A DNA stretch of 64,000 bases from Haladaptatus cibarius D43 (GTDB taxonomy: Archaea; Halobacteriota; Halobacteria; Halobacteriales; Haladaptataceae): the NCBI RefSeq assembly GCF_000710615.1, contig NZ_JDTH01000008.1, forward strand, positions 1 through 64,000, in the 5' to 3' direction. The first letter of the stretch is position 1. Each line of letters opens with the position of its first letter. This document shows positions 11,095 through 62,049 of the stretch, in pieces. The translations under genes and the position numbers were made by a program. The notes under the pieces are model-generated. The model saw nothing but the letters and a program-made list of their open reading frames with translations, made no database searches and was not told where the DNA came from.

Positions 11095-12228
11095 ATGGCA
11101 AGCCTTCCATCGCTGTTCGAGACGTTTCTCATGGGTATTCGTCCATCTGAACAGCACATTGAGGACTACAAACAGGGGCACGAAGCTTTGCGTACACTCC
11201 TCCGATCAGACGACACGGTCACGGACTTCTATGTTGGTGACTTTCTCCAAGGGAGTTACCGACGGTGGACTGCCGTTCGCCCGATCGGAGACGAGAAATC
11301 GGATGTTGACATCGTTCTGGTGACGGATTTGGACAAAGAGGAAGTGACTCCGGAAGAGGCGATGGCGAAGTGTGAACCATTCCTCGAGGAGCACTACGAT
11401 GGGCAGTGGTCTAAAAAAGACCGAGCCTACCAGATCGAGCAAGATGATGTCGAAATCGACCTCGTCTTGACTGCCGCTCCCAGCGAGGCGGCGAAGGACG
11501 CAGTCCGACCGGACGGATCAATAGGCCAGTTGGCAGTCGGAGAGGGACTAGATATCGAACAAGGAGTGAATATCAATCAGTCGAGTGAGGTGGCAGAGGC
11601 GTTTGGACTGACATTTAACGCACACGATGAGGAGTGGAGAGACGAACCACTCGATATTCCCGATCGTCGACTTGACGAATGGGATTGTACCCATCCTCTC
11701 GCGACCATTGAGTGGAGCTACAAGAAAAACGACCGTACCGATGGGTACTACGTGAACGTTGTGAAGGCCATCAAGTGGTGGCGGCGGACGCAAGTCACGG
11801 AACCAGTGCGGCCGAGGGGGTACCCTCTTGAACATCTCGTCGGTGAGTGTTGCCCCGATGAGATTGACTCGGTCGCAGAGGGAATCTGCCTGACCTTCGA
11901 GACAATCGAGCAGCGGTTTGCGACCGAAGGGATAAACGAAGAATCCCCAACCCTTCCAGCTCGTGGGCTCCCCGATATCGACGTCTTCGCTCGAATCGAT
12001 GGCGAAGACTTCGCTACGTTCCACGATGCCGCATCTGACGCTGCGACACTGTCACGGGAAGCACTTGACGAGGACAATAAGTCAACATCGCGTGAATTGT
12101 GGCACGAACTCCTCGGCGAAGAATTCCCCGAGTATGGGTCGGACGATTCGGACGACGATGGTGAGCGTGCAGTCAATTTCAACACAACCTCGCGACGGAC
12201 GAACGTTACCGAGCATCGGTTTGCCTAA
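11095..12228 (+). CDS. CD-NTase (cGAS/DncV-like nucleotidyltransferase) of CBASS
   Basis: 377 residues. The nucleotidyltransferase signature is clear: the GS loop LQGSYRR (G53-S54), then KSDVDIVLV with D70 and D72, and the third acid D122 in EIDLVLT. CD-NTases are activated by phage infection and make a cyclic di- or trinucleotide second messenger. It is the first gene of a three-gene operon with an E2/E1/JAB protein (14 bp downstream) and a TIR-SAVED effector, the layout of type II CBASS. In such systems the enzyme is primed by conjugation through its own C-terminus, here ending in HRFA. Which nucleotide is made cannot be read from the sequence. Confidence 0.88.
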   Translation: MASLPSLFETFLMGIRPSEQHIEDYKQGHEALRTLLRSDDTVTDFYVGDFLQGSYRRWTAVRPIGDEKSDVDIVLVTDLDKEEVTPEEAMAKCEPFLEEHYDGQWSKKDRAYQIEQDDVEIDLVLTAAPSEAAKDAVRPDGSIGQLAVGEGLDIEQGVNINQSSEVAEAFGLTFNAHDEEWRDEPLDIPDRRLDEWDCTHPLATIEWSYKKNDRTDGYYVNVVKAIKWWRRTQVTEPVRPRGYPLEHLVGECCPDEIDSVAEGICLTFETIEQRFATEGINEESPTLPARGLPDIDVFARIDGEDFATFHDAASDAATLSREALDEDNKSTSRELWHELLGEEFPEYGSDDSDDDGERAVNFNTTSRRTNVTEHRFA

Positions 12229-12242
12229 TCTCTCACCGAAGA

Positions 12243-14609
12243 ATGCCACCATCAGAGATCACTACAGCTGTCGCTGCTCTCGATTCACTTGACGGTGTCA
12301 CTGTCCTCGAGAGCCCATGCTCGAGCGACGATGGTTCACGCTGGATTCTCAAGGTCCAGCTCCGACCAGATAATATACAATCGGACTCAAAGATACCACC
12401 AGAAACCACATGGTATGTCCACATCGGGTCGGGATATCCAGGGGGGGCTGTTCGAATTTATCCCGCGAAAGAGGACGGTATCACATTGACGTATCCCCAT
12501 CAACGCCTCAACGTATCGGGAGACGAAGACAACCCATGGCGTGACGGAAACCTGTGTGTTGCTCGCTACGGACATGTTATTGGCCGATCAGGTGCGACCG
12601 GGGAACCGACTTCGGCAAGTGAACGACTGCGATGGTATCTTGACCGTGCCCTGTCGTGGTTAGAAGCTGCGTCCAGGGGGGAGCTTCGGCAAGACGGGGA
12701 GCCCTATGAACTGCCCGAATTCAGAACAAATACCGGCCCTTTAACTCAGGTTGGATTCAACGAAACCTCAGATTCAATTGAGCAGTGGCGACACGAGTTC
12801 GGGAACTGGGGTTCAGTTGACCTCGTGCAACTTTCAGAGCCGTCTGGCGTTTTCCTGACTCGAACGTTCCAAAGCGAAGAGGGGGAAGTTGTATATGAGT
12901 CAGAGTGGGGTGGTTACGTCACATCTCACACTGCGTCAGTGGTTCGGGGCGCGTGGCTACTGTTGGAGGAAGCACCGATAGAACCTCCGTGGAAAGCGCC
13001 GGAGACGTGGGCGGATTTGGAATCATTGCTTGAGGGAACAGCCGTGGACCTGTACGAGCTTCGCGTCCACATCGACTCAGTCTTCGAAGGCGATTCGCTC
13101 AACTGTCTCCTACTCGGATTTCCGATTCCGAGCGAAGTTGGTGGGGAACCCGAACTCGTCCATTGGCAAGCACTCAAGCTTCCTGACCTGACACCGATAT
13201 CTGAAGTACCGGGATTCGGTAGGGAAACAGCTCGTAACAAAGAGTATGGGGCGAGGGTGGATCTGGCCCAGGATTCAATTTGCTGGTTGGATTCAGATAA
13301 TTGGGCTCATGATCAGCTTTCACGGCGGGGACACGTCCATACGTCGCTCCGCGACGCCAGAGTCCTCCTCATCGGGGCAGGTGCCCTAGGAAGTACCGTT
13401 GCGGAGAGTCTAGTCCGCGACGGGTGTCGTAATTTAACCATCGTCGATGGTGAGAGGCTCGAAATAGGGAATCTATCGAGGCACACTCTGACACTCCCCG
13501 ATCTGAAAAGGAGTAAGGCAGAAGCACTTGCTGCTCACCTCAACACTATCTCACCCCATGTGAGCGCAGTGGGCCTCTCCGAAGCGTTTCCCATGGACGG
13601 ATGTCGGGTAGAGACCATCGGGTCGGTAGATATCGCGATTGACTGCACAGCTTCGGACACCGTTCTCCACGCCCTCAATTCGATTCAGTGGGAACAGCCA
13701 GTCCTCTTCTGCTCGGCGTCTATGGGCCGACGTGGGGACCGTCTGTTCTACTTTGCCGCCTACTCTTCAAATTTCCCATCCGAGGAATTTCGAGCGCGGT
13801 ATGAGCTGTGGGGGTTACAAGAGCGAATCGAGTGGCAACCGGGAGAAGACGAAGTTCCCGAGCGCGTGGGCTGCTGGCACCCAGCGTCTGTAATCCGAAT
13901 GGATCGTGTGATGACGTGGGCAGGTACGATTACGCGTCTCCTCGATCAAGACACGGCGCTAGGTCTCGGCGGAACTGAGTTCAGAGTGTTCGAAACGGGT
14001 ACCGATAGCTCGCCCACGGTTTCAGAGAGGGAGTCTCCGTTTCGGGCATTAGTACGATGGGCCGCCCCAGATTCAGGCGTCTCGGTTCAAATAACTGCAT
14101 CGTGCCTCAAGGCAATGGTTGACCTCTGCACTGATGCAGACTCTCTGGAAACGGGTGGCATCTTGGCAGGGACAGCTCTTGACGAATCGACTGCGCTCAT
14201 TGTTCGTGCGAGAGACCCGCCACGTGATTCCACTCAGAGCCCCACGGCATTTCATCGAGGTACCGAAGGCGTCGACGAGTGGCTACGAGAAGCACGTGAC
14301 AGCATGGGCATCCACTACCTTGGAGATTGGCACTATCACCCTTCAGAACCTCCGGTTATGAGTAGCCCCGACCGCACAGAGATGGAGACGATAGCCGGCT
14401 CAGAGTCGTACAGTTGTCCACACCCAATACTGTTCATCGTCGGAGGCCACGCGTCAGACGAGTTCACCATTCGAGCGTATCTTTTCCACCGGGGTCAGGA
14501 CTACGAAGAACTTGAGTACGTGGAGACTCGGGAGCGATCGGACAGCCGTTCCGGTGATGTGGAATTGAACATCGTTTTCCCGAATTCACGAGAAGGTGAG
14601 GTCGAATGA
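12243..14609 (+). CDS. Fused E2-E1-JAB protein (Cap2 and Cap3 in one chain) of CBASS
   Basis: 788 residues in three parts. Residues 1-150 look like an E2 fold with a catalytic Cys at 105 in DGNLCVARYG. Residues about 365-600 are a ThiF/E1 domain: ARVLLIGAGALGSTVAES is the Rossmann nucleotide loop, followed by VDGERLEIGNLSRH, and a Cys near 541 (RVGCWHP) is a candidate thioester site. Residues about 625-760 form a JAB/JAMM isopeptidase with ETGGILAG and the zinc motif WHYHPSEPPVMSSPD. In bacterial CBASS the E1-E2 protein Cap2 attaches the CD-NTase C-terminus to targets and a separate Cap3 removes it. Here both activities sit on one polypeptide. The stop codon overlaps the next start (ATGA). 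Confidence 0.88.
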   Translation: MPPSEITTAVAALDSLDGVTVLESPCSSDDGSRWILKVQLRPDNIQSDSKIPPETTWYVHIGSGYPGGAVRIYPAKEDGITLTYPHQRLNVSGDEDNPWRDGNLCVARYGHVIGRSGATGEPTSASERLRWYLDRALSWLEAASRGELRQDGEPYELPEFRTNTGPLTQVGFNETSDSIEQWRHEFGNWGSVDLVQLSEPSGVFLTRTFQSEEGEVVYESEWGGYVTSHTASVVRGAWLLLEEAPIEPPWKAPETWADLESLLEGTAVDLYELRVHIDSVFEGDSLNCLLLGFPIPSEVGGEPELVHWQALKLPDLTPISEVPGFGRETARNKEYGARVDLAQDSICWLDSDNWAHDQLSRRGHVHTSLRDARVLLIGAGALGSTVAESLVRDGCRNLTIVDGERLEIGNLSRHTLTLPDLKRSKAEALAAHLNTISPHVSAVGLSEAFPMDGCRVETIGSVDIAIDCTASDTVLHALNSIQWEQPVLFCSASMGRRGDRLFYFAAYSSNFPSEEFRARYELWGLQERIEWQPGEDEVPERVGCWHPASVIRMDRVMTWAGTITRLLDQDTALGLGGTEFRVFETGTDSSPTVSERESPFRALVRWAAPDSGVSVQITASCLKAMVDLCTDADSLETGGILAGTALDESTALIVRARDPPRDSTQSPTAFHRGTEGVDEWLREARDSMGIHYLGDWHYHPSEPPVMSSPDRTEMETIAGSESYSCPHPILFIVGGHASDEFTIRAYLFHRGQDYEELEYVETRERSDSRSGDVELNIVFPNSREGEVE

Positions 14610-15895
14610 CAAACCCGCAAGGTAAGATGTTCATCAGCTACAAACACTCCCAGCAACCGCTGGCAGAGGGACTAGAGATGGCTTTGCGGGAACACGGAGT
14701 CCCCGTCTGGCGCGACGTTCACGAGATAGGGCCAGACCCGTTGGAGCAGCAAATTCGGGAGGACTTGGCGGACCCGAACCTCGCAGGCGGCATCGCCGTC
14801 GTAAGTGAAGACGTCTCTGAGTCATCCATCATTCTTGAGGTAGAACTCCCGGCGCTTCGTGAACGGTGTGACGACGAGGACTTCTTCGTCGTTGTCGCTC
14901 TGTGTCCGGGGCTAGGGCACACCGAAGCAAAAACGATTCTCGCACAAGCAGACTCGCCTCGTGACTTCTCACATTGGTTCATGGAATCGATAGAGGTCGA
15001 ATCCAATGGGGAGGAGCCCACTTCCATACTCGATCACGTCGTCGATGCTGTGACGAGCGTCGTTCCGGGAACTCAGCGAACAAACAATCAATCACCGGCA
15101 TTCGACCAAGTCGTCACTGCTGTACTGGAGCGACGCCTCCAATGTGTTGAGAGTAACCTTTCTGATGACCAACCTATCGACTGTACTCTGGATACGTATC
15201 CACACCCCTCGTACGAGCCGCAGTTCGCACTGAACATCGACTGGTCGCCACACTTCGACGGCACCATCCCGAAGAAATCGATTTGGAACGATCGGCTCCT
15301 GCCCGCTCTGCGCCAATCAGTAGACTATCTACAAGACCGAGCTCCTGGTCGAGAACTTCGGTTCCGGGGACGAGCACATCTACCGGCTGCGTTCTCTCTG
15401 GGACACTGTCTCCAAGAGTCACGTGGAATCGCAGCCGCGTGGTTGCAGGGACAGCAGAGTGATTTCACGCCATGGCGAATAGATACGTCCCACGAAGAGA
15501 GTCGTCTACAATGTGATTTCGAGCATTTAGATACGACTGCTTCACACCTTGCTGTGATGGTCAGTATCGTCGACGACGTGCGTCCAGAAGTCGGGAGAGT
15601 GAAATCAGAGTTACCTCCGCTCAACGGGATGGTCGAATTCAGGCACGAGCAGAGCGGTGAGAAGAGGCTAACTGCTCCGAAAGCGTCCCATGTCGCACAC
15701 GTATTTGAAGAGCAGCTTCGTGATGTATTGAATCGAGTGTCGAAGACCTCGATGATTCATCTATTCATGGCAACTCCTGTAGGCCTCGCATTCCTCCTCG
15801 GTCAGAAGACGAACACTCTACCCCCGATCCAGACGTACTGTCTCAGTACAACGGATTCCGGGAGGGCGTACGAGCCTGTGGCCTTATTGAAGTAG
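14606..15895 (+). CDS. TIR-SAVED effector of CBASS
   Basis: 429 residues. The N-terminal 125 residues are a TIR domain: KMFISYKHSQ, VPVWRDVHEIG, then GGIAVVSEDVSESSII and a Glu (78 or 80 in LEVELPAL) in the position of the NADase catalytic Glu. The C-terminal half has the features of a SAVED domain, with a buried strand MIHLFMATPVGLAFLLGQ near the end. In known TIR-SAVED proteins cyclic nucleotide binding assembles the TIR domains into an active NAD-cleaving filament that kills the infected cell. Translation is coupled to the upstream gene by a 4-bp overlap. It is the terminal toxin of the operon. Confidence 0.88.
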   Translation: MTNPQGKMFISYKHSQQPLAEGLEMALREHGVPVWRDVHEIGPDPLEQQIREDLADPNLAGGIAVVSEDVSESSIILEVELPALRERCDDEDFFVVVALCPGLGHTEAKTILAQADSPRDFSHWFMESIEVESNGEEPTSILDHVVDAVTSVVPGTQRTNNQSPAFDQVVTAVLERRLQCVESNLSDDQPIDCTLDTYPHPSYEPQFALNIDWSPHFDGTIPKKSIWNDRLLPALRQSVDYLQDRAPGRELRFRGRAHLPAAFSLGHCLQESRGIAAAWLQGQQSDFTPWRIDTSHEESRLQCDFEHLDTTASHLAVMVSIVDDVRPEVGRVKSELPPLNGMVEFRHEQSGEKRLTAPKASHVAHVFEEQLRDVLNRVSKTSMIHLFMATPVGLAFLLGQKTNTLPPIQTYCLSTTDSGRAYEPVALLK

Positions 15896-17118: not shown

Positions 17119-18249
17119 TTATCCTTTATCTGTACCCCGCGTACTATCGATCACGTCACTGATCTCACCTGCCTCGATATGCGAGTAACTCTTGTTCGTG
17201 ATCGCAATCGACGAGTGACGAAGCGCGGCCTGGGCATCAGGCGGATTCGTCCGGTACAATTCATCTCCGAGCCCACGACGAGCGCCGTGCGGTTTGAGGT
17301 ACTCACCCTCTACACCGAGTTCAGCCTCTTCACAAAGCCGTTTCATGAGCGACCGTGCTCCTTCCGTCGAAATCGCAGGGAGTACAACCCCTTTTTCACG
17401 AATTACAGCGTCAATATCCTCGTCTTCGGCCTCGACATCCGGCACCTGCGACCGAACAGCGCTGTATTTCGACGGTGCATGCTCGGTCGGGAACAACGGA
17501 ACCTCTGGCATTGCCGGGTCAAGTTCGTCTCTCCATCGTCGCAGTGGTTTCTGTGCGACTTCGGGAAGTGGCGCGTACTCGTACTCCTGACTCTTGCCGA
17601 GGACGCGAAGCGCTCCGTTCGCCCAGTCCACGTCGGCCCATGTCGCACCGTCTCGGCGGTTGTCCTTCGGATGGGAGAAGACTTCTGCACCGCGAACGCC
17701 CGTGTGCGCGAGGAGAGCGACGAGAGCGTGCTGTCGAAATCGTTTGCGCTTCTCACCCTTGTTTCCGGATTCGATGGCGTCGAGTGCACACCGGCGAAGA
17801 AACGATTCGAGCTGGCGACGGTCGTCCGGACTCCAGAACTGCTGGGTGTCTTTCGTTCCGGGATCGTCAGGGAGTTCTTCGAGGGCGATTTCGTCTTCTG
17901 CCGGATTCGAGCCGAGAAGTTGGTCGCGGGAACACCATGTCAGAAACGCGCGCACGTAGGCATAGTACGTAGTGGCGGTACTGGCGGCGTACTCGTCCTG
18001 TCGAACTTTCGTCTTCAGATGACGGGCGTAGTGTCGGAGATGGACGGGTTCGATTGCTTCGAGTGCCGTGACGTTCTCCTCTTGGTCGAGCCAGTTCGCC
18101 CAGCGTCGAATGACTGACTCGGCGTTCGAGACGTAGTTGCCTGCGCCGGTACTCTCCGGATTGGCGACGGCTTTGCTTTTGATGTAGTCGGTGAGGGCGT
18201 CTTCGACGGTCGTTTCCCCGGGGTATGAGGCGTCCTTTGGGGGTTGCAC
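17119..18249 (-). CDS. XerC/D-like tyrosine recombinase
   Basis: 376 residues from a GTG start. It has both domains: an N-terminal SAM-like core-binding domain (about residues 12-110) and a catalytic domain with Arg in HTGVRGAEVF, the box HGARR, a second His in ALRHSSI and the nucleophile Tyr in KSYSHIE. Haloarchaeal plasmids and islands use such enzymes for dimer resolution or for site-specific integration. The gene stands apart from its neighbours, with non-coding DNA on both sides. No attachment-site duplication was found by eye. Confidence 0.85.
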   Translation of the reverse strand: MQPPKDASYPGETTVEDALTDYIKSKAVANPESTGAGNYVSNAESVIRRWANWLDQEENVTALEAIEPVHLRHYARHLKTKVRQDEYAASTATTYYAYVRAFLTWCSRDQLLGSNPAEDEIALEELPDDPGTKDTQQFWSPDDRRQLESFLRRCALDAIESGNKGEKRKRFRQHALVALLAHTGVRGAEVFSHPKDNRRDGATWADVDWANGALRVLGKSQEYEYAPLPEVAQKPLRRWRDELDPAMPEVPLFPTEHAPSKYSAVRSQVPDVEAEDEDIDAVIREKGVVLPAISTEGARSLMKRLCEEAELGVEGEYLKPHGARRGLGDELYRTNPPDAQAALRHSSIAITNKSYSHIEAGEISDVIDSTRGTDKG

Positions 18250-19691: not shown

Positions 19692-19989
19692 GTTATTGTA
19701 GGGTTCTTTCAACTTCCACAATCTCAGAGGATACGATTTTTGTGTGCCTTCATTTCATAGCATACTGAAAAATATCTTACTAGTAGATCTACGCGTCTCG
19801 CACCGAGAGTGAAGTGAGCGGTTCACCGGAGGAGCCCCCGACAAGGAAATGACAGCACCACCTAACAAGTTCCCGTTTCGCCCTATATCAGCTGAGACTT
19901 TTCTTATAAGTTGATTTCCTCTATCTGATGTACAGTGGAGACCTTCTCCGTAACACTGTTGATAACGTGATGAAAATATCTGAGATACT
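19692..19989. other. Non-coding lead-in to citrate synthase genes
   Basis: About 300 bp with AT-rich segments at 19700-19790 and 19890-19985. No gene seen. It should contain the promoter of the downstream gene, which starts at a GTG. Confidence 0.4.
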
Positions 19990-21435
19990 GTGACTCCCTC
20001 CGTCTTCGATCCGGGCCTCTCTTTCACCGCAGTTGCTGAAACTGGCCTCAGCGAAATCAACAGCGACACCGGCGAGTTGCGAATTCAGGGGTTCTCGGTC
20101 GAAGACCTTGCTGAGAATGCAGGTTACGAAGAAGTAGCGTGGTTGTTGTTCAACGGCCGACTCCCGACCGACAAAGAGTTAGCCGAGTTCACGAACGAGC
20201 TCTCGTCCGCTCGAAACCTCACAGAGGATGTCTACAGTCTAATTCAGGCAGGTGCTGAAGAAGATGTGCCGGCAATAGATGTACTCCGGATGGGGTTGGG
20301 GGCCGGGAGTCTCTATTTTGACAGTGAGGACACCCTCATGGCTACCCGGCGCGTCGTCGCAATATGCCCAACAGTCATCGCAGCCTACTGGCGGTATCGG
20401 CGAGGGTTAGAGCCCATACATCCGCGTGACGACCTAACTCACACAGCGAATTTTTTATATATGCTTTCCGGGGTAGAGCCGGCCGAATCGACTGTAAAGA
20501 GGCTAGAAACGTATCTGATAAGTATTATCGAACACGGCCTTAATGCCTCAACATTCACCGCTCGGATTATCGGGTCAACCGGGTCCGATCCACTTTCGGC
20601 GGCTACCGGTGCCGTAGGAGCACTCAAGGGACCACGACACGGTGGAGCACTCGAACGAATTTTTGAGATGTTCACTGACCTTGATGACGGGACAAATCCA
20701 ACAACGTATGTTCAAGAGCGACTGGAGAACGACGGATCGTTACCTGGATTTGGTCATGTCGTCTATAACACTCGAGATCCGCGAGCGAAAATCATCGAAA
20801 GATCGGCAGAACGCGTTGTCAAGGGGCAAGAGTCAACATCGTTCCTTAGGAACGCACAAGAGCTTGAGGCCGCCGCTGAGGACTATTTTTCTGAACACTA
20901 CCCCAAGCGACAAATGCACGTGACTGTCGATTACTACGCGGCAGTTCTCCTTTCCGAACTCGACATTCCATCGGAATTGTTCACCGCGATCTTTGCTATC
21001 GGACGTTCCGCCGGCTGGATGGCTCACTACCTCGAACAGCTCGAAAGCGAGACACTACTTCGACCTCGAACACGATATATCGGCCCAGAGGAACGGTCGT
21101 GGATTTCGCGCTCGGACAGATATGTCGCGGGCGATTCGAGTCCGCCTTCATCCAACGATTTGAAGGGGATATCCTCAATTCTTGGCACTCTTTCAGAACC
21201 CGATCGGTTGGAGTTGTTGTTAATTCTGTATGAGTCAGCGAAGCCACTTTCGTACTCGTCGATTCGAGCGCAGAGTTCAATCGACGATAAGGGGCGGTTC
21301 AACTATCATCTCCGAAAACTTCGTAGCATATATATCACGAATACAGATGCGGGTTATTCATTGTCTGATACGGGCCGGAAGGTCATTGAAGTGCTCGTTG
21401 ATGACGAGCAATTGCTCGCACAAATAATCGAATAA
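19990..21435 (+). CDS. Citrate synthase-like protein fused to C-terminal winged HTH
   Basis: 481 residues from a GTG. Residues 1-375 are a citrate/2-methylcitrate synthase domain: IIEHGLNASTF carries the first catalytic His, KGPRHGGA the CoA loop, GFGHVVYNTRDPRA the second His, and TVDYYAAVLL the catalytic Asp; RPRTRYIG follows near the end. In the GHRVY box the usual Arg is Val. Residues about 390-475 are extra and resemble an ArsR-type winged helix-turn-helix (ILGTLSEPDRLELLLILYES, then NYHLRKLRSI). Citrate synthases normally end before this point. The fusion suggests a metabolite-sensing regulator or an enzyme tied to a promoter, possibly acting on the paralogue 240 bp downstream. Function is inferred. 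Confidence 0.82.
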   Translation: MTPSVFDPGLSFTAVAETGLSEINSDTGELRIQGFSVEDLAENAGYEEVAWLLFNGRLPTDKELAEFTNELSSARNLTEDVYSLIQAGAEEDVPAIDVLRMGLGAGSLYFDSEDTLMATRRVVAICPTVIAAYWRYRRGLEPIHPRDDLTHTANFLYMLSGVEPAESTVKRLETYLISIIEHGLNASTFTARIIGSTGSDPLSAATGAVGALKGPRHGGALERIFEMFTDLDDGTNPTTYVQERLENDGSLPGFGHVVYNTRDPRAKIIERSAERVVKGQESTSFLRNAQELEAAAEDYFSEHYPKRQMHVTVDYYAAVLLSELDIPSELFTAIFAIGRSAGWMAHYLEQLESETLLRPRTRYIGPEERSWISRSDRYVAGDSSPPSSNDLKGISSILGTLSEPDRLELLLILYESAKPLSYSSIRAQSSIDDKGRFNYHLRKLRSIYITNTDAGYSLSDTGRKVIEVLVDDEQLLAQIIE

Positions 21436-21677
21436 TGAGTCACCGATAGGGGAAGTAGATTTACCCTGTAATATTGAGACTATTTCATAGCCCGATGATT
21501 GTTGGAAACCTCCGATAGAGTTGTCTCCCACTATCTTCTGAGACAATAGGTAAACACGAGAACAATCGGTACACTGCTTGATCATGTTCCTGCGTTGGAT
21601 GATGATTAGCATTAGAAGAGAAATGGTCTTCTCCAAAGCCCTATCTTCAATTCTCTCTTTTCTCTATACGGATTAGC

Positions 21678-22811
21678 ATGGTTGACCAAAAGCTCCACCG
21701 AGGATTAGAAGACATCGCCGTCGCGGAAACACGACTCAGTACTATCGACGGCGAGGCTGGTGAACTCATCATTGGAGGATACTCTGTTGAGGAACTTGCC
21801 AAGAATGCGATCTACGAGGAAAGTGTTTTCCTGTTGTTTAACGACCGACGTCCGACGAAATCGGAACTCGAATCGTTCTGCACGGAACTCGCTGGCTATC
21901 GCAAAATCTCCAAGGAAGCCAAACAGGTACTTCGACAAGCCGCACAAGAAAACGCGGACGCGATGGACGCTCTGCGAATGGGTGTGGCCGCAGCCAATCT
22001 TGGCTCTGACTTGACAAAATCGACGGACTACGCCAAGCGACTGGTGAGTGTGATCCCAACTATCGTCGCGACCTATTGGCGATATCACTCAGGTAAAGAG
22101 CCGGTGGATCCACACGACGACCTCGGCCATACCGCGAACTACCTCTATATGCTGTCTGGCGAAGAGCCCGACCCCGCAGCTGTGAGAGGGCTCGAAACCT
22201 ACCTCAATACGGTTGTTGACCACGGACTGAATGCATCCACCTTTGTCGCTCGGTCTATCGCATCGTCCGATTCAGACCTCGTTTCAGCAGTAACGGGTGC
22301 AGTAGGGTCACTAAAGGGACCGCTTCACGGTGGAGCACCTGGACCGGTTTTGGAGATGCTCCTCGCAGCACACGAATCTGGAGACCCGGAGGGTTATGTG
22401 CAGGAGAAACTCGATTCTGGTGAGCGGCTTATGGGCTTTGGACACCGAGTGTATCGCACGCGCGATCCACGTGCAGAGGTCCTCTCCGGTGCCGCTGAAC
22501 GGTTTTATTCTGGATCGGGTGACAGAGCATTCTTCGGATTTGTCGAAGGATTCGAAGAGACTGCGGTTAGTCGACTGGCCGACCACAAGCCTGACCGAAA
22601 ACTCGAAACAAACGTTGAGTTCTACACAGCCGTACTTCTGCATGGAGTTGGCATCCCACAGGAGTTGTTTACGACCACCTTCGCTGTGTCACGAGTCGGT
22701 GGTTGGGTGGCTCATTGTCTTGAGCAGTTAGCAGATAACAAGATAATTCGCCCTGTGTCCATTTACGTCGGTGACCGTGGCCGATCGTGGACTCCAACAA
22801 ATACCCGCTAG
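21678..22811 (+). CDS. Citrate synthase-like paralogue with catalytic Asp replaced by Glu
   Basis: 377 residues, the usual length for archaeal and Gram-positive-type citrate synthase, and clearly paralogous to the preceding gene across its whole length. The two catalytic His boxes are present (VDHGLNAST and GFGHRVYRTRDPRA) and so is KGPLHGGAP. The third catalytic residue is changed: the box that normally reads NVDFY is NVEFYTAVLL here, Asp to Glu. A conservative swap may leave weak activity or change the substrate. There is no HTH tail. Start ATG at 21678, 241 bp after the first gene, so it may have its own promoter. Confidence 0.85.
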   Translation: MVDQKLHRGLEDIAVAETRLSTIDGEAGELIIGGYSVEELAKNAIYEESVFLLFNDRRPTKSELESFCTELAGYRKISKEAKQVLRQAAQENADAMDALRMGVAAANLGSDLTKSTDYAKRLVSVIPTIVATYWRYHSGKEPVDPHDDLGHTANYLYMLSGEEPDPAAVRGLETYLNTVVDHGLNASTFVARSIASSDSDLVSAVTGAVGSLKGPLHGGAPGPVLEMLLAAHESGDPEGYVQEKLDSGERLMGFGHRVYRTRDPRAEVLSGAAERFYSGSGDRAFFGFVEGFEETAVSRLADHKPDRKLETNVEFYTAVLLHGVGIPQELFTTTFAVSRVGGWVAHCLEQLADNKIIRPVSIYVGDRGRSWTPTNTR

Positions 22812-23146: not shown

Positions 23147-25342
23147 ATGCCTGAAGACGAGGAACTTTCTCTTGTACCAGACACCGCGAAAACAAACCCA
23201 GAAGACGATGAGCTAGGATATGCAGAATTCGCCGAGCATCTATCAGATACGATTGACGCGAAGGTTCCGACGACCGAGTTCATCATCGGAATCTATGGTC
23301 AGTGGGGGCTGGGAAAGAGTACAATTCTCAACTTCGTCAAGTACTATCTTGAGCAAGAGTACGAGACAGAAGGTGAAGATGAAAATGGAGACTGCTCCCC
23401 GCAGATTATCCGGTTCAACCCGTGGTGGTTCTCGGGACAACACGACCTTATCGAGAAATTCTTCTTTCAGTTACAGGCGGGATTGCAAAATGGTGACGAT
23501 GAATCTCGATTTAAAGAAGTGCGGGGAAAGATTGCGTCGTTAGGGACTAAAGTCTCATCGCTCCCTATCGGAGCGATGACTGGAGTTCCTAAGGCCGAAA
23601 AAACCATCGGCGTTTTAGCAGAGTTGGCAGATGAAGAATCTGCCAACACTTCCGTTGAAATCCTCAAAGACGAAATCTCGGCTGGGCTTAGAGAGGAAGA
23701 TCGGAACATCGTCATTATGATTGACGATATCGATCGTCTTACCGAGATGGAGATAAAGCAGATGTTCCGTCTCGTAAAGAGTGTTGCTGATTTTCCAAAC
23801 GTCACCTACATTCTAGCGTTCGACCAGAATGTGGTGGTTGACGCTTTAGAAGGTGAGGGAGGGTTCCGAAATGGTGAGGAGTACTTAGATAAAATAATAC
23901 AACTTCCTGTTCATATTCCCACACCACAAAGCCAGTCTATAGATCTGCAATTCCGCAGCCAACTTGATGAGCAGGTCAGGGAAGCGAAATTTGATAAGCA
24001 ACGTTGGCAACAAATGTACCATAACGGGGTGAAGGAACTTCTAGAGACTCCACGAGATGCAATTCGACTTTCAAATGCGATCGAGATCTCGTATGGTGCT
24101 TTGGAGGAGGAAATTAATATTGTCGATTTGGTCGGGATCGAAGCGCTTCGTATATTCAGGCGAGAAATGTATGAGGAAATCCGTGATGGAAAAGAAGAGC
24201 TTACTAAAAAAATAGATAGTCAACGGAGACAAATAGACTTCCGTGAAAATGATGAAGGAAACTCTGGGCAGGGGTTCTGGGTTACAGAAGAGGAATTAGA
24301 CGAAATAGATGGTTCAGTGTCTAATATTCTAACAACACTATTTCCAACCTTCCGCGATCTAAGTGATGCATTTTTCTTGTATAGAGAAAATTCAGAGACG
24401 CACCTCAAACGCAGGAGAATTTGCCATCCACATATGTTCGATTTTTATTTCAGGCTGACTATCCCTCGGGAGGGAGTCTCAATCAGCAAGATAAACACCG
24501 TTCTCGAAGCAACCAATGATACACAAACATTTTGTGACGTTCTATCTGACATTGTCAAGAGAGACGAAGATGGAGAGAGATCTCAAGGAGCTATTCTTTT
24601 GGAGCAGTTTACAGAGTATTTAGACGAGATCCCAGAAAAGAACATTGAGCGGGTTGTTGAGGCAATTTTCATTGCTGGGGAAGATCTCCTCGCGATTGAA
24701 TCATCTGACGACCTTGGATTAGATATTGAATTGTCTATTAAAAATATAGTTTGGTCGCTGTTAAACAGGCTCGATAAAGAGGATCGTCTCCCAGTACTCC
24801 AAGAAGCAATGAATCGTAGTGATTCGGCTTTTATGCCAGTATGGTTGGTTACAAATGCAGCCAACGAGCATGGAGAATACAGCAAACGTGAACTAGCGGA
24901 GGAGAATCGGCTTGTAAATGAGAATCAACTAATGGAGTTGAAGCAGATAGCTATCCAACTAATCCAGAAAGCAGCAGATGAGGAAGAGCTTCTCGATACG
25001 CTAAGAACAACACATATCTTGAAATCGTGGGCAGAATGGTCTGATTCCGAGCAACAAGCAGAGTGGGCGAGTAAAGTTGTACAAGATACAGAGGATCTGC
25101 TCTCCTTTATTGAAACTTTCTTTCATGAACACCATGGGTCTACAGCAGAAGGTGAAGTGATTCGCCATCGAGTAGATCCTCAAGAACTGGAGCCCTATCT
25201 AAACATTTCAGTAGTGGAAGAAAAAATTCGCGAACTGGATTACAAAGAGGTGACTGAAGAGCAACAACATATCATGGATGTATTCAAACAGGGACAAAAG
25301 GATTTAGAGGAAGGTAAGGATCCAACCCGACTGGGATTCTGA
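23147..25342 (+). CDS. KAP-family P-loop NTPase
   Basis: 731 residues. Walker A is GIYGQWGLGKST (about residues 47-58), followed by the KAP hallmark IRFNPWWFSGQHDLIEKFF, and Walker B is NIVIMIDDIDRL (about 185-196). The C-terminal half is helical and unassigned; I see none of the transmembrane segments that split many KAP proteins, so this may be a soluble member. KAP NTPases are patchily distributed, often on plasmids and next to defence genes, and some are needed for phage exclusion. Composition is AT-richer than the flanks, which suggests transfer. It ends just before two minus-strand genes. Confidence 0.82.
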   Translation: MPEDEELSLVPDTAKTNPEDDELGYAEFAEHLSDTIDAKVPTTEFIIGIYGQWGLGKSTILNFVKYYLEQEYETEGEDENGDCSPQIIRFNPWWFSGQHDLIEKFFFQLQAGLQNGDDESRFKEVRGKIASLGTKVSSLPIGAMTGVPKAEKTIGVLAELADEESANTSVEILKDEISAGLREEDRNIVIMIDDIDRLTEMEIKQMFRLVKSVADFPNVTYILAFDQNVVVDALEGEGGFRNGEEYLDKIIQLPVHIPTPQSQSIDLQFRSQLDEQVREAKFDKQRWQQMYHNGVKELLETPRDAIRLSNAIEISYGALEEEINIVDLVGIEALRIFRREMYEEIRDGKEELTKKIDSQRRQIDFRENDEGNSGQGFWVTEEELDEIDGSVSNILTTLFPTFRDLSDAFFLYRENSETHLKRRRICHPHMFDFYFRLTIPREGVSISKINTVLEATNDTQTFCDVLSDIVKRDEDGERSQGAILLEQFTEYLDEIPEKNIERVVEAIFIAGEDLLAIESSDDLGLDIELSIKNIVWSLLNRLDKEDRLPVLQEAMNRSDSAFMPVWLVTNAANEHGEYSKRELAEENRLVNENQLMELKQIAIQLIQKAADEEELLDTLRTTHILKSWAEWSDSEQQAEWASKVVQDTEDLLSFIETFFHEHHGSTAEGEVIRHRVDPQELEPYLNISVVEEKIRELDYKEVTEEQQHIMDVFKQGQKDLEEGKDPTRLGF

Positions 25343-26860: not shown

Positions 26861-28957
26861 ATGGCACGCGCGAACCATACTGAACTAGTAGACCGATTCG
26901 AGCAGTTCTACCGTCGATATTACGCCGACCAAGTCGGAGAACTCGCCCAAAACTATCCGAATGAAAAGCGCTCGCTGTACATCGATTGGAACGACCTGTA
27001 TCGGTACGACACAGATATTGCAGATGATTACCTTGCGCAACCGAAACAGTTGCAAGAGTACGCCGAAGAAGCGCTTCGTTTGTACGACCTCCCTGTGGAC
27101 GTGGGCCTCGGACAAGCACATGTCCGTGTCCAAAACCTCCCCGAAATAACCGAAATCGGAGAGATCCGTTCACGGCATGTCCGCACGCTCGTCTCACTAC
27201 GGGGAACCGTCGAACGTGCATCGGCTGTTCGCAGTAAGATACAGGAAGCCGCCTTCGAATGCCAGCGGTGCGGGACGCTAACGCTCATTCCACAGAGCAG
27301 TCTCGGTGAGACGCAGGAACCTCATGAGTGCCAAGGATGCGAGCGACAGGGGCCATTCCGCATCAACGTTGACCACTCAGAGTACATCGACAGGCAGACG
27401 CTTCTCCTAAAACGTCGTCCGGGGAATGCGACGAAAGATGGAGAAGCAAGCATTGTCGTGACGGTCGAAGACGACATCGCAGGAGATGTCGCACCCGGTG
27501 AAACCGTGACTGTAACTGGTATCGTGCGTATCCTCAATGATGATCACACAGATGCTTCTATCGCAGACAAGATCATCGACGGTCTCTCGGTCGTCATCGA
27601 GGACGAAGAGTTCGAGGATATGGACATCACGGACGAAGACAAGGAAAGCATCGTTGAACAGTCCAATCAATCAGACATTTACGACCAGATGGTTAGCTCC
27701 GTGGCCCCCTCGATTTATGGATACGAGGAGGAGAAATTGGCGATGATTCTCCAACTGTTCGGGGGAGTCACAAAACATCTTCCGGACGGGACTCGTATTC
27801 GTGGCGACATTCACATAGCACTCTTCGGCGACCCTGGCCCCTATGAAAGTCGTCTGCTCGACTACGCAGGTGTTCTCTCCCCACGCACGATCAGCGCCTC
27901 CGGATCTGGCAGTTCGTCGGTTGGCCTCACCGCGTCGATGAAGCGCACCAAAAAGACGAGTCGCGGTGATAAGACGTGGGCTGTGGAAGCTGGTGCGCTT
28001 CCACTCGCCGACCGTGGTCTCGCATGTCTTGAGAGTCTGGACAAATTCAACGACGAACAGGGAGCGGCTCTCATCGACGTGCTTGAAGACCAGACGGTGA
28101 AGGTGAACAAAGCCACCGTCTCGGAGCAACTGAAAGCGCGGGCATCGGTTCTCGCCTCGGCACATCCGAAGTACGGACGGTTCGATCAGTACGAGCCGAT
28201 CGGAGAGCAGCTAGACCTCGAACCCGAGCTCATCTCGCAGTTCGACCTCATCTTCACGGTGACAGACCAGCCCGACCCAGACCACGACGCACGACTCGCG
28301 GAACATATCCTACAAACCAACTTTGCGGGAGAGTTGAACACTCAGCGAACCGAAATCGACGCCCCGAACATCAGCGAAGAACAGGTGCGAAGCCAGACAG
28401 AAGAAATCACTCCGGCCATCGACGCAGAACTCCTTCGCAAGTACATCGCCTACGCGAAATCGAACATCTATCCAACGATGAAACCGGAGGCCCGTCAGGC
28501 GATTCGGGACTTCTACGTCGATTTGCGTTCGAAAGCTGCGGACGAGGATGCGCCGGTTCCGGTGTCAGCCCGAAAGCTGGAAGCACTCGTTCGGCTGGCG
28601 GAAGCAAGCGCACGAGTTCGACTCTCGGATACAGTCGAACAGGAAGACGCAGATCGCGTCATCGATATCGTTCAGTCATGTTTGAAGGACATTGGGGTTG
28701 ACCCGGAAACGGGGCAGTTCGACGCCGACGTGGTCGAAACCGGGACGAGTCGAGAATATGACGACAAAGAGGATGCGATAAAACACCTCATCGAAGAGGT
28801 CGACGAAAACTACGATAAGGGTGCCCCAGTAGACGTTGTACTCGACAAAGCTTCTGAAATGGGTATGGAGCCTTCGAAAGTTGAGTACGTAATTGAGCAA
28901 CTGAAACAGAAGGGAGAAGCCTACGAACCCTCGACCGACTACCTTCGATCTACGTAA
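26861..28957 (+). CDS. MCM helicase homologue with destroyed ATPase site (pseudo-MCM)
   Basis: 698 residues with full MCM architecture: N-terminal domain with a zinc pair (C134/C137 and C157/C160), OB region to about 250, AAA core about 275-520 and a C-terminal winged helix (about 640-690). Every catalytic ATPase motif is altered. Walker A reads GDPGPYES at 323-330 (no Lys), Walker B reads ACLESLDKF at 388-396 (Asp-Glu replaced by Glu-Ser), sensor 1 is His435 in ASAHPKYGRFD instead of Asn, and the arginine finger is Gln460 in ISQFDLIF. The surrounding framework residues and the ARKLEALVRL box are kept. It should bind DNA or join an MCM ring but not hydrolyse ATP. Confidence 0.88.
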   Translation: MARANHTELVDRFEQFYRRYYADQVGELAQNYPNEKRSLYIDWNDLYRYDTDIADDYLAQPKQLQEYAEEALRLYDLPVDVGLGQAHVRVQNLPEITEIGEIRSRHVRTLVSLRGTVERASAVRSKIQEAAFECQRCGTLTLIPQSSLGETQEPHECQGCERQGPFRINVDHSEYIDRQTLLLKRRPGNATKDGEASIVVTVEDDIAGDVAPGETVTVTGIVRILNDDHTDASIADKIIDGLSVVIEDEEFEDMDITDEDKESIVEQSNQSDIYDQMVSSVAPSIYGYEEEKLAMILQLFGGVTKHLPDGTRIRGDIHIALFGDPGPYESRLLDYAGVLSPRTISASGSGSSSVGLTASMKRTKKTSRGDKTWAVEAGALPLADRGLACLESLDKFNDEQGAALIDVLEDQTVKVNKATVSEQLKARASVLASAHPKYGRFDQYEPIGEQLDLEPELISQFDLIFTVTDQPDPDHDARLAEHILQTNFAGELNTQRTEIDAPNISEEQVRSQTEEITPAIDAELLRKYIAYAKSNIYPTMKPEARQAIRDFYVDLRSKAADEDAPVPVSARKLEALVRLAEASARVRLSDTVEQEDADRVIDIVQSCLKDIGVDPETGQFDADVVETGTSREYDDKEDAIKHLIEEVDENYDKGAPVDVVLDKASEMGMEPSKVEYVIEQLKQKGEAYEPSTDYLRST

Positions 28958-60711: not shown

Positions 60712-62049
60712 TTACTGTCTGAGCTGTGCGTTCACGATGGTGCGGAGTTCGTCATCGTGGACGTCATCTAGGCGCGAATCTTCCCGAAGCGTCTCGATGA
60801 TGGTTTCCGGGTTTTCACCAAACGTGAACTCAAGATAGCTGCCCGAGTGTGGCCCTTGGCTCTTCCGTTCTGTCTCAACCAACGAATACGTCGTGAGTTC
60901 CTTCATCTTATTCACGTACGTCTCCTGGTGGTACTGATCCGAACTAAGGGTACCTGTTAGGTACTGATATACTCGGTACCCGGTCGGGCTTTTCGCTGCA
61001 CCAGTTCCGGTTTCACGTGCCACAGCCGCAGTCGCGAAAAGACAGAGCTTCTTCTGCGTGCTAATCCCACGAGTTACCTCTAACACGCGGTTTTTCTCAA
61101 CCTTATCTTGAGCTTCTCGAACGTGCTCCTCACGGACTTTGTCCGCGCCTGTTCTTTCTGCAATCGATCCCGCTGTTCGCATCAGATCGATCGCCTTCCG
61201 TGCGTCCCCATTGGTTTGTGCGGCGAATGCTGCTGCGAGCGGGATGACATCATCACTGAGTGCATCCTCGTGGAAAGCATCTTCTCGGGCCTGGAGAATT
61301 TCCCGGAGTTGATTGGCGTCGTAGTCGCTGAAGTGGACATCTTCAGGAGTAAACGAACTGAGAGCACGGCTACCGACGCTCTCCATCATCTTCGTATCGT
61401 TAGTAATGGCGGTTACGGAGACCTGAGCATTGATCTCATCGGTGCTTCCAGCACGAGAGAGCTGATAGAGAAGGCGGGAGAAAGCTGGCTCATCCTTATC
61501 GCGACGACCGACAAGCATATCGAGTTCATCGAGGATGAACACGACGGTATCGTAGTGTTCGTTGATGAGACGATAGAGTTCGCGCCATTTTTTCTTGTTT
61601 GGAATGCCGTGTTCGGGAACGTCGACAGTCGTTCCGATGTCGTTCGCCACCTTTCGGACAAGTTCATAGACGGTTGCACCGAGGGTACCTACATTCTGGC
61701 AGTTCATCTGGATGACGCCAAACCGAATATCGCGACTTTCGCAAAGTTCGACGATGTTTTGACAGACGGCGTTAATGATCAGAGATTTCCCGGTTCCAGA
61801 CGGTCCATAGAGGAGGAGATTCGGTGGCCGCTCGTTACTAATCGCGACGCGAAGATGCTGAGTAATATCGGTGAGCTGTGTATCACGACCGACGATCCGT
61901 TCCTCATCGACGATCTCGTTCGGTTCAAGCAGAGAACGGTTCTTGATGAGACTCGCTGTTTCCTCCTGTTCGAGGATGAGATCTTTAATCGAACCCGTGG
62001 ACTTGGGGGTTCCCTCGGAACCAGGATTCGGTGGCATGCCGGATTCCAC
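60712..62049 (-). CDS. orc1: Replication initiator Orc1/Cdc6
   Basis: 445 residues. Walker A is YGPSGTGKSL (82-89), Walker B VFILDELDML (D164-D167), sensor 1 VTAITNDTK, sensor 2 region GDARKAIDLM, and a C-terminal winged helix (about 340-440, with the GPHSGSYLEF wing). Binds the boxes on both sides to open the origin and load MCM. The initiator gene next to a repeat cluster defines this region as the replication origin of the replicon. It may bind its own upstream boxes and so autoregulate. Confidence 0.93.
   Translation of the reverse strand: MESGMPPNPGSEGTPKSTGSIKDLILEQEETASLIKNRSLLEPNEIVDEERIVGRDTQLTDITQHLRVAISNERPPNLLLYGPSGTGKSLIINAVCQNIVELCESRDIRFGVIQMNCQNVGTLGATVYELVRKVANDIGTTVDVPEHGIPNKKKWRELYRLINEHYDTVVFILDELDMLVGRRDKDEPAFSRLLYQLSRAGSTDEINAQVSVTAITNDTKMMESVGSRALSSFTPEDVHFSDYDANQLREILQAREDAFHEDALSDDVIPLAAAFAAQTNGDARKAIDLMRTAGSIAERTGADKVREEHVREAQDKVEKNRVLEVTRGISTQKKLCLFATAAVARETGTGAAKSPTGYRVYQYLTGTLSSDQYHQETYVNKMKELTTYSLVETERKSQGPHSGSYLEFTFGENPETIIETLREDSRLDDVHDDELRTIVNAQLRQ

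Follow-up and report, generated by a model that had tools for sequence, protein, structure and literature searches.

Several one-component regulators are derived from enzymes: in MocR/GabR, NrtR and the ROK repressors an enzyme-fold sensor is combined with a helix-turn-helix (HTH), and PutA and BirA are enzymes that double as regulators. To our knowledge, no enzyme-derived one-component regulator uses citrate synthase (CS). In Bacillus subtilis the CitA-type synthase gene citA has its own regulator, citR, next to it. Proteins that combine citrate synthase with an HTH also occur in Proteobacteria (WP_099780911.1 of Roseomonas and WP_027791960.1 of Burkholderia cepacia; L115 553-1749 and L116 586-1833). 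These proteins carry an N-terminal MerR-like HTH (HTH_17, in Burkholderia just below the Pfam cut-off), and their GFGH motif is followed by R or H. They are named citrate synthase family protein or citrate/2-methylcitrate synthase, and possibly they are regulators too. A search of titles and abstract openings in the open-licence literature found no description of a citrate synthase/HTH fusion.

The haloarchaeal gene presented here resembles the proteobacterial ones in joining CS to an HTH, but its HTH is at the opposite end and belongs to another family. It would encode a one-component transcription factor with citrate synthase as the sensor, a reading to which we give a probability of about 0.7. 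The gene lies at 19990..21435 (+) in the window, the 64,000 bases analysed here (bases 1-64000 of contig C8, 84,182 bases, in the 3.93 Mb assembly of Haladaptatus cibarius D43), has a GTG start and encodes 481 aa. Residues 9-360 (20014..21069, +) form the CS domain (Pfam Citrate_synt, E 5e-107), which PF00285 spans entirely (profile positions 1-357 of 357). A winged helix (wHTH) follows at residues 398-468 (21181..21393, +; Pfam DUF7347, E 6e-18), with the recognition helix, GRFNYHLRKLR, at about residues 434-444. The sequence-only reading had proposed a winged helix in frame with the synthase, and the single 481-aa ORF with its DUF7347 match bears this out. Pfam HTH_20 on the same domain stays below its cut-off (E 0.013). 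A TATA-like element, gttgataac, at 19958..19966 (+), about 27 nt 5' of the GTG, would be the fusion's own promoter, and its position suggests a leaderless transcript. Against the NCBIfam equivalog model for haloarchaeal CitZ the fusion scores 335.7 bits and misses the 550-bit cut-off. RefSeq annotates a close member, WP_276256089.1 of Halomontanus rarus, as citrate/2-methylcitrate synthase; such an annotation hides the proposed regulatory role.

The full-length model is a citrate synthase fold that matches 6aby, 1vgp and others, and the best sequence and structural matches of the fusion are citrate synthases. With members of PF00285 (MsCS, 6abx/6aby; B. subtilis CitA, 2c6x) it shares the fold, the catalytic triad and the oxaloacetate/citrate residues. 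The wHTH region has a pLDDT of about 53-74 in this model. Modelled alone with AlphaFold2, it reaches a mean pLDDT of 85 and has helices at 10-23, 26-37, 44-50 and 56-66, then a wing of two strands and another helix at 82-92, which gives an a1-a2-a3-a4-wing-a5 fold. Foldseek matched this model to CzrA, SmtB, BigR and NolR at TM 0.6-0.7 (best E in the list 1.4e-3); MarR-type and CggR DNA-binding structures were also similar, and no match fell under E 0.001. A wHTH profile gave weak ArsR matches in the PDB (NmtR and SmtB at E 0.01-0.03), and the ArsR sequence model NF033788 was below cut-off at E 0.026. The HTH expected at the C-terminus is present in the structure prediction and is ArsR/SmtB-like.

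Intact full-length fusions were found in the window and in 10 further genomes (n=11), which belong to several haloarchaeal families. The other carriers are Natrialba sp. SSL1, Halogranum rubrum, YIM A00010, Actinarchaeum halophilum, Halomontanus rarus (where the gene is carried on a 916-kb plasmid) and genomes G093, G079, G166, G210 and G389. In a CS tree of 63 rows, in which long branches are present, the fusions (10, without that of Halomontanus rarus) form one clade with a support of 99/99, nested in the haloarchaeal CitA-like clade. Within the window's own genus only the window's genome has the fusion among 9, so it was likely spread by transfer. In seven pairs dN/dS ranges from 0.13 to 0.35 in the CS part and from 0.03 to 0.13 in the HTH, and the HTH value is the lower one in each pair. 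Judged by these ratios, the fusion is conserved, with purifying selection on both domains. Because it is full length in 10 further genomes and under such selection, chance read-through is ruled out as its origin. In genome G222 (L110 9065-9853) the fusion is shortened in frame: about residues 36-250, roughly 215 positions of the CS domain, are missing. An ORF resembling acyl-CoA synthetase, judged from its start, comes after this truncated gene.

Downstream of the fusion lies its inferred target, CS2 (21678..22811, +), a stand-alone CitA-like citrate synthase of 377 aa that is 47% identical to the fusion and lacks the extra domain. A third citrate synthase of the genome, at C1:90931, is 39% identical, falls outside the clade holding the fusions and is taken for the housekeeping CitZ. 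In 11/11 loci the CitA-like CS2 is the first CS gene to follow the fusion on its strand. This includes G093, in which the two genes stand 3.6 kb apart and two ORFs that have no Pfam matches lie between them. A shared operon or pathway neighbourhood was sought in 8 fusion loci and rejected: only the fusion/CS2 pair recurs beyond close relatives, the one exception being a two-locus neighbour cluster (C8), and the other neighbours are unrelated. At 26 CitA-like loci, too, the long ORFs closest by group only in pairs or one triple. In Halomontanus rarus a gene for a degradative hydroxymethylglutaryl-CoA reductase is divergent from the fusion (L114 4469-5779), and an integrase follows CS2.

The window also contains a KAP-family NTPase directly after CS2 (23147-25342; PADLOC PifA model, E 2e-109) and, at 11095-15895, a CBASS-type defence operon with an oligonucleotide cyclase (PDLC00822, E 8e-140), an E1-E2-JAB protein and a TIR-SAVED effector. 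An integrase, an MCM and an Orc1/Cdc6-like protein (17119-18249, 26861-28957 and 60712-62049) give the contig the appearance of a plasmid or an integrated element.

The residues of the fusion were numbered by spacing against the solved archaeal synthase MsCS, for which excerpts of the structure report (PMC6386500) give His214, His253 and Asp307 as catalytic, together with Arg262, Arg332 and, from the other subunit, Arg351. The same excerpts place the acetyl-CoA pocket in the small domain and have Arg351 contacting citrate and turning away with oxaloacetate (PMC6386500). The counterparts in the fusion are the triad H217, H256 and D314 and the oxaloacetate residues H182, R265, R339 and R358. H182 is presumably an oxaloacetate residue, an assignment made from pig citrate synthase. 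H217, H256, R265, R339 and R358 are invariant in 11/11 fusions and H182 is kept in 10 of them. Position 314 is D in 8 fusions and E in 3, and it is E in 37/37 CitA-like enzymes. The arginine that follows catalytic H256 (GFGH-Arg), R257, is present in 54/54 enzymes and in none of the 11 fusions. R250 and R355 are each lost in 10/11, and N185 is changed in 4/11. In Halogranum H182 is replaced by R in the oxaloacetate site and in Halomontanus GFDH replaces GFGH, so ligand binding may differ between members.

The changes are concentrated in one part of the protein. Of the positions at least 90% conserved in the 37 CitA-like enzymes, the small (CoA) domain has 49, of which 20 are changed in the fusions, and the large domain has 113, of which 8 are changed (Fisher p 8e-7, domain bounds mapped from excerpts of PMC6386500). 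With 17 bacterial, other archaeal and CitZ enzymes added to the baseline the excess weakens to 4/22 versus 2/58 (p 0.046), and both p-values are rough since the compared CS rows are related to each other. Three other changes were discarded as marks of lost catalysis: position 221 (P221L) varies widely in enzymes, R216 (L216R) is found in 2/37 CitA-like ones, and position 260, where K/R is lost, varies in enzymes too. The earlier claim that the catalytic residues are intact therefore stands for the triad and the oxaloacetate set, but not for enzyme residues of the small domain, notably R257. Unlike in citrate synthases, these are lost and a C-terminal wHTH is present; the look of a CitA-type enzyme belongs to CS2, not to the fusion. 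From this pattern we infer that the oxaloacetate/citrate pocket is kept and that the CoA site, to which R257 would contribute by binding CoA, is lost or altered. The fusion probably no longer uses acyl-CoA the way an enzyme does. Given the remodelled small domain and the absence of R257 from 11/11 fusions, acyl-CoA also fits poorly as a signal, and since the pocket residues are kept, oxaloacetate or citrate appears the likelier one.

Two alternatives turn on this pocket. The fusion could be a working citrate/methylcitrate synthase and a regulator at once, reporting its own turnover. The triad and most oxaloacetate residues are kept in all or nearly all of the 11 proteins, and the dN/dS of the CS part is near that of CS2 (0.14-0.20), but the universal loss of R257, the loss of R250 and R355 in all but one member, the changes at N185 and the single H182R make this unlikely. 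Slightly less probable still is that the wHTH regulates CS2 while the CS domain senses nothing and acts as a dimer scaffold, or forms mixed dimers with CS2 as a product feedback. Archaeal citrate synthases are dimers according to the excerpts of PMC6386500, and the fusion and CS2 are similar in sequence and always neighbours; a scaffold, however, need not keep H217, H256, R265, R339 and R358 in every member.

When the DNA upstream of CS2 was aligned, a conserved palindrome surfaced, and sites were scored out of 12 against GGAGAA-N6-TTCTCC. Two operator-like sites are present in the window: the proximal O2 (AGAGAA-N6-TTCTCC, 11/12; 21617..21634, +), 43 nt upstream of the start of CS2, and the distal O1 (GGGGAA-N6-TTACCC, 9/12; 21449..21466, +), just past the fusion stop codon. 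Abutting O2 is aaagccctatct (21635..21646, +), a putative BRE/TATA-like element. In all 11 intact fusion loci the proximal site scores 10-12/12 and ends 34-43 nt before CS2 (start codons as chosen in this analysis), and a distal site near the fusion stop codon scores 8-12/12. Both sites stay with CS2 and not with the fusion in G093. Among CitA-like genes without a fusion, 0/25 loci examined reach 11 in the 400 bp upstream (best 10). The whole-genome pattern GRRGAA-N6-TTCTCC gave 121 mostly scattered matches and was replaced by one that includes the promoter spacing. With up to one mismatch, the latter has a single match per genome in 9 fusion genomes, invariably at CS2, and its reversed control has none; this pattern and the azlC-type one below were built from known sites, so that sensitivity is by construction and only specificity counts as evidence.

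Control of the fusion by itself, which the sequence-only reading had also proposed, is not supported, as the best site in the 300 bp upstream of the fusion scores 9/12 across the 11 loci and none reaches 10. Close relatives share a conserved CCGTAACACTGTTG upstream of the fusion; it is absent from distant ones and was taken for basal promoter.

A search of 392 genomes with the wHTH only found, after the fusions, small stand-alone proteins in frames of 117-144 aa. At 15/15 of these loci (14 distinct; L058 = L089) the palindrome is present at 11-12/12. It starts -27 to +38 nt from the gene end and is followed on the same strand by an AzlC-like gene; AzlC and AzlD are Pfam-confirmed in L058. Six other DUF7347 loci were examined and 0/6 had the palindrome; of 3000 shuffled windows of 600 bp, 6 contained a site scoring 11. 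By eye, the distance from the palindrome to a TTTA-like element at azlC promoters, about 6 nt, equals that to CTAT/TTAC at CS2. The palindrome with the azlC-type spacing (GGAGAA-N6-TTCTCC-GAR-NN-TTTA) has 22 sites in 22 of the 392 genomes and 0 in the reversed control, and all 22 lie between a wHTH gene and azlC, including 8 not used in building the pattern. These loci (L126-L147, site at 1501) would be regulator-operator-azlC cassettes.

The stand-alone proteins share with the fusions a clade, the palindrome and an identical order of wHTH, operator, promoter and target, and the recognition-helix motif D-K-G-x-F-N-Y-H-L-R is common to nearly all members of that clade. They differ in having no CS domain and in their target, which is the AzlC permease and not a synthase. 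In the HTH tree fusions and stand-alones together are separated at 100/99 from 9 of the 10 other DUF7347 rows, which are proteins of about 300 aa; the remaining row, L006, joins a stand-alone on a long branch, and branching among fusions and stand-alones is weak. The association of this wHTH clade with the palindrome and the operator at the CS2 promoter are new here. The co-occurrence of clade and operator, with and without a CS domain, is the main argument that the fusion would bind the CS2 promoter.

The CS2 palindrome might instead be read by another regulator, for example a stand-alone wHTH elsewhere in the genome, with the fusion acting on other targets or on itself. Genome G111 (L079 7150-8604) has CS2 with both operators (scores 12 and 10) and no fusion nearby, which may reflect a recent loss of the fusion or another reader of the site. 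This reading is nevertheless improbable: the azlC-type operator-promoter is absent from the window's genome and the other eight fusion genomes searched, the fusion's own promoter has no site, and in G222 the fusion with the large deletion has neither CS2 nor the operator beside it. It is very improbable that the wHTH is an appended domain that plays no part in DNA binding, or that it arose by chance read-through, since the HTH_20 score under the Pfam cut-off and the lack of an assigned function for DUF7347 stand against 11 intact fusions, an HTH under lower dN/dS than the CS part in all 7 pairs, and operator association at 15/15 and 22/22 loci of wHTH relatives.

The fusion very probably regulates its own paralogue, CS2. 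Control of the gene next door had been suggested before, and the predicted operator in 11/11 loci, common to the stand-alone relatives, strongly supports it. In the proposed mechanism the fusion would form dimers by way of the CS core, like other citrate synthases, and each of the two wHTHs would then face one half-site. The dimer would occupy O2, next to the BRE of the CS2 promoter, as well as O1, a weaker site further upstream. Binding of oxaloacetate or citrate in the kept pocket would close the CS domains and move the C-terminal arm, which may alter DNA binding or contact with TFB. R358, which would reach into the partner's active site, is a plausible route from ligand to DNA head, because its counterpart Arg351 shifts with the ligand and R358 lies about 40 residues before the wHTH. 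Activation of CS2 seems somewhat likelier than repression, because the operator-to-TATA spacing is fixed in both lineages. The output would be the level of one gene, CS2, from whose enzyme family the sensor descends.

As for origin, both lineages have the same gene order. On the simplest path, a wHTH gene would have gained a CitA-like gene at its front, and behind the operator azlC would have given way to a second CitA-like copy. CitA-like and azlC genes do meet, since in G161 (L016 1489-3399) a CitA-like gene is directly before azlC, there without an operator scoring at least 10. The weak resolution of the HTH tree leaves the direction of this change unproven. The fullest account is of a pseudo-enzyme transcription factor that reads oxaloacetate or citrate, controls only its catalytic paralogue, and had its head, operator and promoter geometry captured together from a regulator-operator-azlC cassette; we regard it as an even bet.

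Unlike in MocR/GabR, NrtR and ROK proteins, the proposed sensor is here paralogous to the protein that the single inferred target gene encodes. CitR of B. subtilis, in contrast, is LysR-type and unrelated to citrate synthase. The C-terminal DUF7347 form, with its operator and a one-gene target, was not found described. The shared operator predicts an azlC regulon in 22 of the 392 haloarchaeal genomes. Sensing of central-carbon flux at the level of transcription is little known in archaea, and here the fold of a TCA-cycle enzyme itself seems to be the sensor, with a named operator, a promoter and a one-gene target.
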